A DNA stretch of 40,630 bases from the NCBI GenBank assembly GCA_029261965.1, contig JAJDAH010000347.1, forward strand, positions 1-40,630, read 5' to 3'. Positions within the stretch are counted from its first letter, which is position 1, and every line of letters begins with the position of its first letter. Positions 22,414-27,222 of the stretch are shown here, in pieces. The translations under genes were made by a program, and so were the position numbers. The stretch comes from Polyangiaceae bacterium (lineage in GTDB: Bacteria; Myxococcota_A; Polyangia; Polyangiales; Polyangiaceae). The notes below the pieces were generated by a model that searched no databases, had not been told where the DNA came from, and saw nothing but the letters and a program-made list of their open reading frames with translations.

Positions 22414-23277
22414 ATGATCATCGTCACTGGCACCAAGCGGTCCGGGACGTCGATGTGGATGCAGGTCATTCAAGCAGCTGGCTTTTCGGTGATCGGCGAA
22501 GCCTTTCCGGGGAAGTGGCGTGACACGCTGCATGCGGCTAATCCCGACGGCTTCTACGAATCGATTCTCCGCCGTGGAATTTTCTGGCGGACAAATCCTC
22601 ATCCGAAGACCGGTCGCTACCTCTTTGCGGAGGAAACGACTTGGCATGCGGTCAAGGTGTTCATCCCCGGGTTGATCCGTAGCGATATCGCGTTCGTCAC
22701 CAAGGTGATCGCGACGATGAGGCATTGGCGTGACTACGACGCATCGATTCGCCGGCTATACGACATCGAGCACGAAGCGAGGGTCCAGCGCGAGGGACCC
22801 GACGCGAGAAAACCGCACAGGATCTCGCCGCTGCTCGAGTGGTGGGGCGAGAATTTTTCTCTCGTGAGCGATGCCGTTACTCGACGCTATCCGCTTCACC
22901 TGGTGGCCTACGACGAAGTCTTGAAGGAGCCCGAGCGAACGATTCGAGAGGCGATCGACTGGTTGGGCATTGGTGACTCGGACGCAGCGATCGCCGTCGT
23001 GAAGCCCGATAAGCGTACCCAGGACACCCGCGACACTTCCAACGACACGGTGCTCGGCGTGGAAATCACTGACGTGTTCGAAGCGCTCTATGAGGTGGTG
23101 CTCGAGCGCAAGCCCCTCGAACAGAGCTTCGTCGAAAAACTCAACGAAACCCAAGCGAAGCTCCTGCCGTTGTACGAAGAAGAGAGCAAGAAGGTCGAGG
23201 CCGACGCCAAAGAACGGCGCCGGCGGAACGAGGACTCGTCCGGCGGCTACGATGACGAGTCGGCTTCGCCCGGCTGA
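22414..23277 (+). CDS. Sulfotransferase-like P-loop protein
   Basis: A 287-residue cytosolic protein. It opens with VTGTKRSGTSMWMQVI, the 5'-phosphosulfate-binding loop of the sulfotransferase family (K8-R9-S10-G11-T12-S13), and continues with a pattern typical of the superfamily: FVTKVIATMRHWRDYDASI and then YDEVLKEPERTIREAIDWLG, which is a common late block. It should transfer sulfate from PAPS to a hydroxyl or amino group; the acceptor is unknown. The C-terminus is a charged Lys/Arg/Glu/Ser tail. The gene starts 42 bp after the unknown protein and converges on the RluA-like gene with a 31-bp overlap. A second sulfotransferase domain lies 2 kb downstream. Confidence 0.75.
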   Translation: MIIVTGTKRSGTSMWMQVIQAAGFSVIGEAFPGKWRDTLHAANPDGFYESILRRGIFWRTNPHPKTGRYLFAEETTWHAVKVFIPGLIRSDIAFVTKVIATMRHWRDYDASIRRLYDIEHEARVQREGPDARKPHRISPLLEWWGENFSLVSDAVTRRYPLHLVAYDEVLKEPERTIREAIDWLGIGDSDAAIAVVKPDKRTQDTRDTSNDTVLGVEITDVFEALYEVVLERKPLEQSFVEKLNETQAKLLPLYEEESKKVEADAKERRRRNEDSSGGYDDESASPG

Positions 23278-24212
23278 CCGGATCTCAGTCGGTCGATCAA
23301 ATCAACCAGATCCTGGGGCAACGGGGATTCGAAGCGCATCGGACGGCCGTGGCGGGGGTGGGGAAGTGCGAGGGCGGAAAGGTGCATGGCCGGGCGACCC
23401 AGATCTCGGGCAACGGGTCGCAGTCGCTCGTCGACTCTTCCCGGCGAGTAGCGGCGGTCGCGTAGAACTGGGCATCCTGCACGCTCAGCCAGATGGACAC
23501 GGATGGGATTTCGCGAAGCGGCCCGGACGCGACATGAAACCAGAGCCGCTAAACCGTCGAGTAGCGGCTCGACGGTTTCGACCACGGTGACCACCTCGCG
23601 CCCTCGCCAGGCGGCCGACGTCAGGCGATGTTTGCCTTTGGGGTCCGGGGCGACTCTCGACCGAATTTCGCCGAGGGAGGGGCAACCGACGGTGACCGCG
23701 GTCACTTCGCGCTCGACCGCGAGGTCGAGGAACATGCGACGCAGACGCGCTCGCACCACTTCGCTGCGAGCGAGTGCGACGACGCCGCTTTGCGCGCCGC
23801 GGACGGCGTGCAGCACGAACAGACGAGGTTGTCCTGGCGCCGCGGCTTCGCCCAAGTACGCCAACACACCGTGATAGAGCGTCCCGCTTCGTTCTCGAGG
23901 GCCTGGTTTGAATCGTTGACCTGCCGGCTTGTCGACGACGATCAGGTCTTCGTCCTCATGAAGAACCGTGACTGAGACGTCGTCGTCGGGCTGAACGGGG
24001 CGGGAGATTCTTTCGGCAAGCTCGAGCTCGATGCGTGCTCCGGCCTTTCCGAGCGTGCGGAGTCGGCAAGGTTTGCCATTCATTCGAACTCGACCTTGAT
24101 TCGCCCACATCCGTAGAGTTGCCCGAGTGAATTCTGGAAATCGTCGACAAAGCACGTCTCCGATGGTTGCCGGTTCGGCCTGGGGTCCGAGGGTGACTAC
24201 ACGGACCGGCAT
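23247..24212 (-). CDS. RluA-family pseudouridine synthase homologue lacking the catalytic aspartate
   Basis: A 321-residue RluA-like protein. An S4-like domain is at about 15-65 (VRMNGKPCRLRTLGKAGARIEL), then EDLIVVDKPAGQ (89-99), the standard entry to the catalytic domain. The motif that should read H-R-L-D-x-x-T-S-G reads H135-A-V-R138-G-A-Q-S-G, so the catalytic Asp is replaced by Arg. The later T-G-R-T-H-Q-I-R-V-H-L block reads A-A-S-R-N-P-I-R-V-H-L (231-241). The rest of the fold is kept, so the protein probably binds RNA without making pseudouridine; decay is the alternative. ATG 24212 is 30 bp from the divergent hydroxylase-sulfotransferase start. The frame extends upstream but only as a shadow of that gene. 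Confidence 0.8.
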   Translation of the reverse strand: MPVRVVTLGPQAEPATIGDVLCRRFPEFTRATLRMWANQGRVRMNGKPCRLRTLGKAGARIELELAERISRPVQPDDDVSVTVLHEDEDLIVVDKPAGQRFKPGPRERSGTLYHGVLAYLGEAAAPGQPRLFVLHAVRGAQSGVVALARSEVVRARLRRMFLDLAVEREVTAVTVGCPSLGEIRSRVAPDPKGKHRLTSAAWRGREVVTVVETVEPLLDGLAALVSCRVRAASRNPIRVHLAERAGCPVLRDRRYSPGRVDERLRPVARDLGRPAMHLSALALPHPRHGRPMRFESPLPQDLVDLIDRLRSGQPGEADSSS

Positions 24213-24242: not shown

Positions 24243-26114
24243 ATGCTCGCCCACCGAGGGCCAGTGAGACTCGAGCACGAGTTCTATCGACTGCCATTGC
24301 GCTTCGATGCCGACCGGCTGATGCGCGAGGTGGACGGATTCGACGAAGGCGATTGGCAGGCCCATCCTCAGGACTATCGCGGCAATAGTGCGATCGCACT
24401 CGTCAGCGACGAAGGTGGAGCGCGCATGACGGAGCAGGCCGCGCTCGAGCGGTGTGCTTACCTGCGGCAGGTGCTTGCGGCACTCGACACCGGCATCGGA
24501 CGAGCCCGGCTCATGCGAATCGCCCCCGGCGAGCAGGTTCCGAGTCATACCGACAGCGGCTCCTACTGGCAGAGTCGCGTTCGCGTACACATCCCCGTCA
24601 TCACCGACCCGCGAGTGATCTTCGAATGTAACGGCGTCGAGGCACACATGGGCGCAGGAGAAACGTGGACCTTCAGCAACTGGCGCCACCACTCGGTGCG
24701 CAATCCCACTGACATTCATCGCATCCACCTCGTGGTCGATACCTGCGGCACGGCGAGCTTTTGGCGAATGATGGGCGACTCGCGTTTCGATCCGACCCGA
24801 TTGGATGCCGCACAGCCGCGACTGGTCATGCCCGACGATGCTCGCCCCGTTCGCGTTCCCACCGAATGGCTGCGAAAGAGCCGCCGCGCCGACCCCAACG
24901 ACATGGACGCGCGGATCTTGGAGGTTCTGCTCGAAGTCGCTCGCTCGCCGGACAACGACCCCGACGACGTGGAAGAATTGACGAGAGCGGTGGATGCGTT
25001 TCGACACGTTTGGCGCGGCACGTGGGCTCGGCATGGGGACAGCCGCGAAGCAGCGGCTGACTTTTTCGGCGCCTACGAGCAGCTCCATGGCCGCCTCGAG
25101 CCGCTGGCGAGACACATTTTCCTCGTCTCGAACGGCGTCGACGCCGTGATGCTGCTTTCCCAGCGGATCGCCGAGGCGAGCGGGATCCCCGACGCCAAGC
25201 CACTTCGTTTGCCCGTCGAGCAGTCGACCGCTCTGTTGGTCAAGCGTGGGCAGGCCGCGGTTCGCTTCGACCGGCCGCTCATCATCGTCGCGGCGCCGCG
25301 GTCGGGTAGCACCCTGTTGTTCGAGACGCTGGCCGGATGTCGGGGACTCGTCACCATCGGCGGCGAGAGCCACCGAGTGATCGAAGGCATCTCGCCGCTC
25401 AGTCCACGGGACCGAGGTTTCGACTCGAACCGGCTCTTGGCCGTCGACGCCAGCGAGGCCATCGCGTGTCGCGTGCGTGAGCGCTTCGCCGCCGAGCTCT
25501 TGGATCACGCGGGAAAGTCGCTGGAAATCCGCGATGGAGAAGAGTGCACGGTTCGCTTTCTCGAGAAGACGCCGAAGAACGCCCTCAGGATCCCCTTTCT
25601 CTGTCGAGTGTTCCCCGACGCCCGGTTCGTCTTCTTGTTTCGGGCTCCGGAGCAGAACCTCAGCAGCATCATGGACGCCTGGCGGTCTGGTAGGTTCGTC
25701 ACCTACCCGGGTTTGCCCGAATGGTCCGGCCCGAAATGGTCGCTCTTGTTGACCCCTGGCTGGCGGTCGCTCGCTGGACAGCCGCTCGAACGAATCGCGC
25801 TCGAGCAATGGTGTATCGCCAATCAGACGATCTTCGATGACCTTTCGCGGCTCGACCGTCGTCGGTGGATGTCGGTCGCATACGACGAGCTCGTGCGCGA
25901 CCCGAAACGCGTCGTGCGCAATGTGTGCCGGCACGGCGATGTCGCCATCGACGAGCGAGATCTCGAGAGTTTTTCCGAAAAGCTACCGCTCTCGCGATTC
26001 ACCCTCACCGCACCGGACGCCGACAAGTGGAGACGCCACAACGGCGACGCCGTCGAGCGGGTGCTTCCGGAAACCCAATTGCTGTTCGAGCGACTGCAGG
26101 GACTGACCAGGTGA
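24243..26114 (+). CDS. Aspartyl/asparaginyl beta-hydroxylase domain fused to a sulfotransferase domain
   Basis: A 623-residue two-domain enzyme. Residues about 10-170 match the Asp/Asn beta-hydroxylase (2-oxoglutarate, Fe(II)) fold: PSHTDSG (H102) and a second histidine H150 in the block WTFSNWRHHSVRNP, then RIHLVVD (R160-D166) for 2-oxoglutarate. A helical linker (about 200-330) follows. The C-terminal half is a sulfotransferase: IIVAAPRSGSTLLFETL with the PAPS loop near 349-358, then FLEKTPKNALRIPFL and a matching RFVFLFRAPEQNLSSIM block. The pair suggests hydroxylation and sulfation of one substrate, possibly a peptide or peptide-like metabolite (inference). Its stop overlaps the GTG of the coiled-coil gene (GTGA). 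Fusion frequency elsewhere was not checked. Confidence 0.88.
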   Translation: MLAHRGPVRLEHEFYRLPLRFDADRLMREVDGFDEGDWQAHPQDYRGNSAIALVSDEGGARMTEQAALERCAYLRQVLAALDTGIGRARLMRIAPGEQVPSHTDSGSYWQSRVRVHIPVITDPRVIFECNGVEAHMGAGETWTFSNWRHHSVRNPTDIHRIHLVVDTCGTASFWRMMGDSRFDPTRLDAAQPRLVMPDDARPVRVPTEWLRKSRRADPNDMDARILEVLLEVARSPDNDPDDVEELTRAVDAFRHVWRGTWARHGDSREAAADFFGAYEQLHGRLEPLARHIFLVSNGVDAVMLLSQRIAEASGIPDAKPLRLPVEQSTALLVKRGQAAVRFDRPLIIVAAPRSGSTLLFETLAGCRGLVTIGGESHRVIEGISPLSPRDRGFDSNRLLAVDASEAIACRVRERFAAELLDHAGKSLEIRDGEECTVRFLEKTPKNALRIPFLCRVFPDARFVFLFRAPEQNLSSIMDAWRSGRFVTYPGLPEWSGPKWSLLLTPGWRSLAGQPLERIALEQWCIANQTIFDDLSRLDRRRWMSVAYDELVRDPKRVVRNVCRHGDVAIDERDLESFSEKLPLSRFTLTAPDADKWRRHNGDAVERVLPETQLLFERLQGLTR

Positions 26115-26749
26115 AGCGCTACTCACGAGCGACGCTTTCGTTCAGCACCCTGTTCGGCGCATCGGTCGGCGCGCTTGCGGTCTGGTGGATGATGAGCGCC
26201 GACCAGGCCGACACGCCGAAGCGAGAACACCCCAACGACTCCTCTGCCGACCGCGCCGAGCGCGATCGGCTCGTCGGGGAAGTGTCGGATCTCGAAAACA
26301 AGGTGGTCGAGCTCGAGCGATGGCAGGCGAGCCGTCGATCCGGTGACGCGGTACGGGGCCGGGCGGGATCCGAAGATGGCGCTCTGCCGACGAGTTCGAA
26401 TGATCCCGATGCGGCGTTGAGTGATGACGAGCGTGCCGACTTGCAACAGATCCGCGCCGAACGACGCGCGCGTTTTCTTCGGAGACGGCTCGCTCTTTCG
26501 GACGCCCAACAACCCGAGGTTCAGGCGATCTTGTTGGATGAAAGCCGGCGGCTTCGAGCCACACGCGCACAGCTAGACACGGCTCAAGCCCCGCGAGAGG
26601 CTCGTCGCGCCTCCGTGCGAGTCGTGCATGGCGAGACCGAGGCGGCGTTGGCCGAAGTGCTCGACCCGGACCAAATGGCGAAATTTCGGGCTCTTGACGA
26701 AGAAAGTGCGGGGAGCTGGCGCAGGAGGAATCGCGCGCGGGCGCGCTAG
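26111..26749 (+). CDS. Membrane-anchored coiled-coil protein, Spy-like
   Basis: A 212-residue protein starting at GTG 26111, which overlaps the TGA of the hydroxylase-sulfotransferase gene. An N-terminal anchor (about 9-28, SFSTLFGASVGALAVWWMM) is followed by a charged linker, a short coiled coil (EVSDLENKVVELERW), and a C-terminal helical region (RRRLALSDAQQPEVQAILLD ... LDPDQMAKFRALDEES) with the spacing of Spy/CpxP-type proteins, including an LSDAQQ block in place of LTxxQ. It probably sits in the periplasm tethered to the inner membrane. Role unknown; coupling to the fused enzyme suggests they work together or that it simply shares the transcript. Confidence 0.7.
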   Translation: MKRYSRATLSFSTLFGASVGALAVWWMMSADQADTPKREHPNDSSADRAERDRLVGEVSDLENKVVELERWQASRRSGDAVRGRAGSEDGALPTSSNDPDAALSDDERADLQQIRAERRARFLRRRLALSDAQQPEVQAILLDESRRLRATRAQLDTAQAPREARRASVRVVHGETEAALAEVLDPDQMAKFRALDEESAGSWRRRNRARAR

Positions 26750-26838: not shown

Positions 26839-27222
26839 ATGGAACTTTTCAAACCAAAAAAAATCATCCCGCCGGTGGGGGTCGCTGTCCTGACGTTGGG
26901 GGCCTGCGGTGGCAACAGCGGTGGCGGCAGCATCGAAGGGGCGATCAAGAAGGTTTGTGAGAAGAACCGGCTGTGCAACCGAACGGAGTTCGAGTCGGAG
27001 TTCTCGAGCATTAGCGACTGCGTTGCTTACTACACGGACTACATCAACTCGTCGAACATCGAGCCGGACTGCCGAAAGGCTGCGATCGCTCTCATCAATT
27101 GCACCACCAGCAAGCTCACTTGCTCCGAGTGGTACTACGACTACGAAGCTGCCGAGTTGAAGTGCGGGCCCCAGACGCGGGCGGTATCCAACGCCTGTAG
27201 CTACGAATACACCTACGACTGA
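26839..27222 (+). CDS. Small Cys-rich lipoprotein
   Basis: A 127-residue predicted lipoprotein. After an unusual Lys/Pro-rich start (MELFKPKKIIPPVG) a short hydrophobic stretch ends at LGAC (C23). The mature chain has eight further cysteines (in KKVC, RLC, SDC, PDC, INC, LTC, LKC and NAC contexts), an even number that suggests four disulfides, and is rich in Tyr and Glu (WYYDYEAAE, YEYTYD). No family is recognised; small Cys-rich envelope proteins like this are common in myxobacteria. It has a plausible ribosome-binding site (gagggtgga) and an upstream gap of about 90 bp in which I see no firm promoter. It converges on the metalloprotease gene. Confidence 0.75.
   Translation: MELFKPKKIIPPVGVAVLTLGACGGNSGGGSIEGAIKKVCEKNRLCNRTEFESEFSSISDCVAYYTDYINSSNIEPDCRKAAIALINCTTSKLTCSEWYYDYEAAELKCGPQTRAVSNACSYEYTYD

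Follow-up and report, generated by a model that had tools for sequence, protein, structure and literature searches.

A hydroxylase-sulfotransferase fusion protein that may modify exported surface proteins at two sites

Animals and plants provide well-documented cases of tyrosine sulfation. Human AspH, one of the hydroxylases closest to the protein described here, holds its iron through two histidines and has no acidic (carboxylate) ligand. In bacteria TPST genes are sparse and Xanthomonas RaxX is the case described, according to the relevant part of PMC9372746, which also places modification by RaxST in the cytoplasm, prior to export. Of the other nearest described proteins, L-proline cis-4-hydroxylase (cis-P4H) and proline 3-hydroxylase (P3H) have no sulfotransferase, nor has AspH, which does carry a TPR domain; CurM and related olefin-synthase sulfotransferase domains sit in polyketide synthases. 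Full-text literature searches, with most subscription journals and bioRxiv outside their scope, returned no paper on a hydroxylase-sulfotransferase fusion. Such a family seems to be widespread and undescribed, and it may reveal a combined protein modification.

The fusion analysed here is encoded on a 40,630-nucleotide stretch of DNA from a Polyangiaceae bacterium; "the window" denotes this whole stretch. It contains the following features.

22414-23277, plus strand: ST287, a second, divergent sulfotransferase-like gene, 287 aa; its family occurs beside Tyr-rich lipoproteins in the phylum, and beside the fusion in genome G093
23247-24212, minus strand: pseudouridine synthase of RluA type, lying between ST287 and the fusion; presumably no part of the system
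24243-26114, plus strand: fusion gene, ATG start at 24243, 623 aa
24264-26114, plus strand: the same gene read from its more probable start, a GTG, 616 aa; homologues align from residue 8 of the 623-aa ORF
24432-24743, plus strand: Asp_Arg_Hydrox core, residues 64-167 (Pfam and family alignment)
24546-24548 (H102), 24552-24554 (D104), 24690-24692 (H150) and 24720-24722 (R160), plus strand: hydroxylase site residues
24888-25181, plus strand: helical linker region, residues about 216-313 (secondary structure of the model)
25275-25952, plus strand: Sulfotransfer_3 domain, residues 345-570 (Pfam and alignments)
25296-25313 (PRSGST), 25365-25367 (E375), 25566-25568 (K442), 25641-25643 (R467) and 25665-25667 (S475), plus strand: sulfotransferase site
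26111-26749, plus strand: translationally coupled protein, 212 aa, GTG start, GTGA overlap; N-terminal membrane segment by eye
26839-27222, plus strand: small Cys-rich, Tyr-rich lipoprotein, candidate substrate; leader KPKKIIP...LGAC

The initial annotation read a hydroxylase and a sulfotransferase in one chain, and both domains indeed exceed their Pfam cut-offs within the 623-aa ORF: PF05118 (Asp_Arg_Hydrox) scores 47.9 bits over residues 64-167 (cut-off 22.6) and PF13469 (Sulfotransfer_3) 88.1 bits over residues 345-570 (cut-off 27). Its hydroxylase residues H102, H150 and R160 are confirmed, with D104, which it had not listed, completing the HxD...H triad, and the proposed PAPS motif APRSGST lies within AAPRSGSTLL. 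Codon-position GC of 24243-26114 (0.68/0.48/0.77) marks the frame as coding. Since family members begin at residue 8 (GTG 24264), the true start is probably 24264. A chance ORF or an assembly chimera is excluded by near-full-length homologues in other phyla (37-45% identity). An 895-aa minus-strand ORF that crosses the fusion gene is the RluA gene (23247-24212) extended upstream; here both codon GC and homologues point to the plus strand, and a chance or antisense origin of the fusion ORF was rejected. The suggested coupling to a membrane-anchored gene also holds, as 26111-26749 overlaps the fusion stop codon (GTGA), with the membrane segment judged by eye; its product matches no Pfam family. 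The sulfotransferase gene said to lie next door is present at 22414-23277 (plus strand), but as the next-but-one gene, with the minus-strand RluA-type gene intervening.

An AlphaFold2 model of the fusion has a mean pLDDT of 91.9 and a pTM of 0.70, indicating high confidence for each domain and lower confidence for how the two are oriented to each other. Its halves match prolyl/aspartyl hydroxylases and PAPS sulfotransferases. For the N-terminal half (residues to about 211) VIA-align ranks 7v4m, a hydroxylase of a nucleoside pathway, first (Z 16.0, rmsd 2.2, 146 aligned), ahead of AspH 5apa (Z 15.5, rmsd 2.7, 163 aligned), P3H 1e5r (Z 15.2, rmsd 3.1, 162 aligned) and cis-P4H (Z 14.8). For residues 337-620 TPST2 comes first (Z 17.9, rmsd 3.6, 228 aligned) and TPST1 second (Z 17.8, rmsd 3.7, 225 aligned), with CurM at Z 16.9. 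Foldseek places cis-P4H and then P3H at the top for the oxygenase, and STF1 and CurM ahead of TPST2 for the sulfotransferase half. A PDB search with a 77-member profile retrieved CurM (2.5e-19), L-proline cis-4-hydroxylase (3.7e-15), TPST1 (3.2e-13) and TPST2 (2.9e-10). These rankings by themselves do not fix the sulfate acceptor.

In fold and in aligned Arg, Glu, Lys, Arg and Ser residues the C-terminal half resembles human TPST1/2 and tick TPST, from which the fusion differs by its attached 2OG oxygenase; identity is 17-20% over the structural alignments. R353 (5'-PSB Arg), E375 (catalytic base Glu) and S475 (3'-PB Ser) align to TPST1, and in the profile alignment E375 and K442 pair with a Glu and a Lys of that enzyme. 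These three kinds of residue, the 5'-PSB Arg, the catalytic base Glu and the 3'-PB Ser, are essential in tyrosylprotein sulfotransferase according to the pertinent part of PMC6637879. CurM is the best profile match to the C-terminal domain, and Pfam finds no carrier or synthase domain in the fusion. The N-terminal half shares fold and HxD...H...R site with L-proline cis-4-hydroxylase (4p7w, aligned over residues 12-197) and the fold class with P3H and AspH; Pfam finds no TPR domain in the fusion, and its site, unlike the two-histidine site of AspH, includes the invariant D104, so that we do not class it as AspH proper.

Both active sites are strictly conserved. H102, D104, H150 and R160 are invariant in 80/80 aligned family rows, as are R114, H116 and H162 and, on the sulfotransferase side, R353, E375, K442, R467 and S475; the count leaves out L116, L117, both halves of the split locus L065, and L029. 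The two L065 halves retain all listed hydroxylase and sulfotransferase residues, and L029 retains R353, E375, K442, R467 and S475. None of the 80 rows lacks an iron ligand or a listed sulfotransferase residue; the ligands are lost, and the sulfotransferase residues kept, in L116 (8306-10150, plus strand) and L117 (3803-5617, plus strand), two divergent relatives in the window's phylum. In both, H102, H150 and R160 are gone, while L117 keeps D104. Sulfation is therefore not always dependent on the hydroxylase. The persistence of a ligand-free oxygenase domain in these two would suit a mere binding module, with sulfation as the sole reaction, but the 80/80 invariance of H102, D104, H150, R160, R114, H116 and H162 makes this very improbable for the family.

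Judged by eye, L116 and L117 adjoin genes of radical-SAM, adenylation and NRPS type, and these may be clusters for sulfated metabolites. Small-molecule tailoring, in which an amino acid or peptide metabolite would be hydroxylated and then sulfated, draws on these two NRPS-adjacent relatives and on the sequence relationship to hydroxylases that act on free L-proline and to the polyketide sulfotransferase CurM. The NRPS-adjacent relatives are, however, the very ones without iron ligands, the genes read in the window and in the island loci described below included no biosynthetic cluster that we noticed, and the recurrent neighbours of the fusion are receptors and secreted proteins. We regard this alternative as improbable.

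A related sulfotransferase of the same subfamily, 38.8% identical, occurs in Eleftheria terrae (WP_301260794, locus L029, 11740-13866, plus strand). Its domain order is reversed relative to the fusion, the C-terminal region looking oxygenase-like by eye (PhyH, 13.9 bits, below cut-off). A PEP-CTERM protein gene lies about 4 kb away.

A search of the named-genome collection with a three-row alignment confirmed 328 stretches from 445 candidates, of which the best 80, representing 79 loci with 37-45% identity, were kept; a single-sequence query of the same collection confirmed 0 of 57 candidates. A single closed fusion ORF is present in 76/79 loci. At L065 hydroxylase and sulfotransferase are adjacent split ORFs, and the ORF lists of L068 and L083 contain no closed fusion ORF. 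The 79 loci are assigned to Pseudomonadota, Cyanobacteriota, Planctomycetota, Acidobacteriota, Actinomycetota and Myxococcota. A plasmid protein search added two full-length fusions, from Diaphorobacter (41.9% identity) and Asticcacaulis (40.9%), both annotated 'sulfotransferase'; the Asticcacaulis annotation starts at the second domain, yet the ORF is continuous. The architecture, whose frequency the initial annotation wanted counted, is thus not unique, with 79 loci in six phyla among the best 80 of 328 stretches. Of its concern that this might be a common characterised architecture, the first half applies, as the fusion is fairly common, and the second does not, as we found no characterisation in the searchable literature. 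The 79 loci elsewhere also rule out a single-genome oddity.

Within the window's phylum 4/377 sampled genomes match the fusion at 1e-30, the genome of the window included; two of these (G379 and G301) carry the relatives with lost iron ligands. Among 36 genomes of the same family partial matches occur in two and full-length matches in none, and a fusion common among close relatives is thereby ruled out. A quick tree places the window protein inside a 45-row, nearly all proteobacterial set (support 99), which makes transfer between lineages likely; by tree path its nearest rows are L031 and L032. The data support the fusion being an old, maintained unit. L044 and L094, two loci with fusions that also carry DUF4915, bear the names Klebsiella pneumoniae and Bifidobacterium breve but may come from wrongly labelled metagenome bins.

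We then characterized the neighbourhoods of 81 loci, the 79 and the two plasmids, with seed proteins drawn from those loci. A partner was counted anywhere in the stretch, up to about 10 kb per side (12 kb for plasmids), and since only 49 of the 79 loci with a located fusion ORF offer 5 kb on both sides, all counts are lower bounds. DUF4915/TIGR03032, on which a full-text literature search found no paper, occurs in 15/81 loci, C-terminally fused in 14 and in L027 as a separate gene with a 4 bp overlap. A right-handed beta-helix protein is also present in 11 of these 15, and beta-helix proteins occur in 18/81 loci overall, L031 and L032 among them (L031, L032 and L062 were added to the count from separate scans). 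The beta-helix gene lies within 200 bp of the fusion in 11 of 13 loci with a measured gap, that of L036 being taken at the nearer copy, and farther away in L074 and L095. Three-domain hydroxylase-sulfotransferase-DUF4915 proteins accompanied by a beta-helix protein are found in L036, L039, L044, L048, L052, L062, L064, L074 and L085.

TonB-dependent receptors were found in 22/81 loci, TPR-sulfotransferases in 24, a further sulfotransferase in 21 and further oxygenases in 33. Receptor, sulfotransferase and oxygenase partners often form one syntenic island, composed of a TonB receptor, TPR-sulfotransferase, 2OG-FeII_Oxy_3, TPR-Asp_Arg_Hydrox, the fusion, a sulfotransferase-like gene and Asp_Arg_Hydrox. 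L040, L042, L053, L054, L063, L077, L093 and L104 share an island in which several oxygenases and sulfotransferases surround one TonB receptor. Conservation across 20 island TonB receptors revealed no clear candidate for a modified loop. None of the scored partners was seen in 22/81 loci. In the genome of the window DUF4915 is absent above cut-off, TPR-sulfotransferase matches are weak only, and beta-helix searches gave one weak match of the L027 type and none of the L031 type, the latter without a positive control. The frequency of secreted surface proteins among the neighbours makes protein decoration likelier than small-molecule synthesis.

The beta-helix neighbours were inspected for potential sulfate acceptors. 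A motif defined after inspection, GGG-hydrophobic-x-x-Tyr followed by Asp or Glu within five residues, occurs in 38/108 GGG-type repeats of 11 beta-helix proteins, from 9 of the 15 DUF4915 loci, in 3/32 repeats of five other fusion-adjacent proteins and in 3/101 repeats of 12 control proteins (Fisher p 1e-9, case vs control); the controls, 12 that passed the filter from 17 control loci, come from other lineages than the cases. Overall Tyr enrichment of the beta-helix stretches is modest (p 0.027), and it is the positional motif that carries the signal. The beta-helix proteins of L031 (12006-14561, minus strand) and L032 (15960-18395, minus strand) have no GGG repeats and show N-x-A-Y-D/N turns by eye; their N-terminal half, also by eye, resembles an inverse-autotransporter or intimin-type barrel. 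Acidic neighbours favour Tyr sulfation by TPST, as stated in the relevant part of PMC9774471. The enrichment of Tyr beside acidic residues in the candidate substrates next door thus suggests that Tyr may be the acceptor.

Modification of proteins before export is the simplest way to account for the domain pair, the likeness of the fold to TPST, the oxygenases that recur nearby and the neighbouring beta-helix proteins, receptors and lipoproteins. We therefore consider it reasonably probable that the fusion acts in the cytoplasm and modifies exported or surface proteins at two sites, with separate acceptors for its two activities and Tyr the likelier one for sulfate. Before export, the N-terminal Fe(II)/2-oxoglutarate oxygenase would hydroxylate an Asp, Asn or Pro side chain, and the C-terminal PAPS sulfotransferase would sulfate an acceptor close by in that chain, with a Tyr within an acidic turn as the best candidate and the newly made hydroxyl as a possible one. 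In acting in the cytoplasm before export the fusion would be analogous to RaxST as described. Different lineages would have different substrates: beta-helix repeat proteins in those with DUF4915 in the enzyme or next to it, and outer-membrane receptors or linked proteins in the TonB-receptor islands. In the window the substrate is probably the Tyr-rich lipoprotein (26839-27222), which the fusion may modify jointly with ST287 (22414-23277). Counted against a protein modifier are the 22/81 loci where none of the scored partners was seen, the NRPS-type neighbours of two relatives and CurM as best profile match, and the placing of CurM above TPST2 by Foldseek lowered our confidence in the two-site reading.

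Alternatively, both domains could act one after the other at a single position, as the initial annotation had proposed. A beta-hydroxy-Asp/Asn or a hydroxy-Pro made by the first domain would then be the O-sulfate acceptor of the second. A single chain conserved across phyla would fit this, as would the oxygenase and sulfotransferase genes that are paired unfused: the split L065 and, elsewhere in the window's own genome, an ST287 gene that precedes a PKHD-type 2OG oxygenase (C318, 53.5 bits) by about 16 bp, and another that diverges from a second gene of the Asp_Arg_Hydrox kind (C246, 57.9 bits). The resemblance of the sulfotransferase half to tyrosine sulfotransferases, the ready acceptor offered by the Tyr-plus-acid repeats of the neighbours and the sulfotransferase residues kept by L116 and L117 despite lost iron ligands all speak against it, and we judge sequential action on one residue unlikely. 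A family that crosses phyla and fuses a TPST-like sulfotransferase to a hydroxylase, and whose gene adjoins that of a candidate substrate at roughly twelve loci, offers testable enzyme-substrate pairs, and provides a functional clue for DUF4915/TIGR03032 and for the Tyr-rich lipoproteins of the window's phylum.

In the window the fusion is flanked by ST287 on one side and the Tyr-rich lipoprotein on the other. The lipoprotein (8.6% Tyr, with a Cys pattern matching five aligned relatives) begins 89 bp behind the fusion-coupled gene and 3.6 kb from ST287. ST287 itself scores 21.3 bits against PF13469 (cut-off 27) and has no significant PDB match; of the three relatives scanned, L164 lies above the cut-off (29.5 bits) and L170 and L188 below. 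ST287-family genes occur in 41/377 genomes of the phylum at 1e-12 or better and in 3 of the 4 genomes with a fusion match (p 0.0044), the two genes being neighbours in the window's genome and in G093. The former has four ST287 genes, one beside the fusion and one (C396) with no oxygenase seen. We scanned 99 of 116 listed ST287 neighbours, the other 17 being excluded by eye as mostly near-duplicates and presumed shadow ORFs. In the 25 most frequent of the 102 families matched, no family of 2OG oxygenases had more than a single one of these neighbours, and the oxygenase match (L151) comes from the window's genome. General pairing of ST287 with oxygenases is thus unsupported; it is a pattern of this genome (3/4 ST287 loci) plus G093.

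The association of ST287 with lipoproteins was analysed in 65 loci: 60 further stretches, the window, C246, C318, C396 and G093, with the weak or cut-off hits G331 and G219 outside the set. Lipoproteins were called as immediate ST287 neighbours 29 times, in 28 of the 65 loci. Their median Tyr content is 5.17% (n=29) compared to 2.49% in lipoproteins of those stretches at least 400 bp away (n=42, p 1.4e-4); gene calls were mechanical, by codon GC, motifs, rules and tests were chosen after looking, and the p values are descriptive. At least 5% Tyr is reached by 15/29 adjacent and 6/42 distant lipoproteins, one of the 6 being the window lipoprotein, and 14/29 adjacent ones remain below 5%. A stricter signal rule, run first, gave 23 vs 38 lipoproteins (p 0.0019) and was relaxed because it missed PKKTIPKL proteins. 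Examples of Tyr-rich lipoproteins are those of L170, YGDFYGDYYGGEGYGD, and L167, MCYENCYCDYYDEYCEDEYCYDYCY. Leaders with an Ile-Pro pair are more frequent at up to 700 bp from ST287 (15/39 vs 4/35, p 0.0075) and accompany Tyr-rich bodies (7.0% vs 2.75% Tyr, n=19 and 55, p 4e-8).

A lipoprotein alignment searched through 18 whole genomes gave 26 matches in 10 genomes. Eight leader-bearing matches adjoin ST287 (G040 C13, C8 and C6; G049 C33 and C24; G178 C1; G213 C211; G175 C48), another lies about 600 bp from it (G396 C58), and the window lipoprotein itself accounts for one. A further six have no sulfotransferase nearby in the stretches read (G213 C165, C15 and C204; G040 C18; two in G136 C4), two of them near contig ends, which indicates that the lipoprotein family is broader than its pairing with ST287. 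G093, the other genome with the fusion beside ST287, has no such lipoprotein. ST287 and the Tyr-rich lipoproteins possibly form a tyrosine-sulfated lipoprotein system apart from the fusion. A full-text literature search on sulfated lipoproteins of the window's phylum gave no title on them among the matches listed.

More broadly, we tentatively propose, as a possibility that falls short of probable, that many phyla hydroxylate and sulfate surface proteins to mark them: 2OG oxygenases and TPST-like sulfotransferases, fused or paired, would modify Tyr/Asp-rich turns in beta-helix proteins, receptors and, within the window's phylum, Tyr-rich lipoproteins, in the last case with the conserved Ile-Pro leader as substrate mark. 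If true, this marking system would constitute a combined hydroxylation-sulfation modification undescribed in the searchable literature.

Finally, ST287-family genes lie within about 50 bp of Tyr-rich lipoproteins in L164, L219, L168, L166, L170, L171, L173, L160, L187, L188, L191 and L193, and many of these lipoproteins carry the Ile-Pro leader motif.
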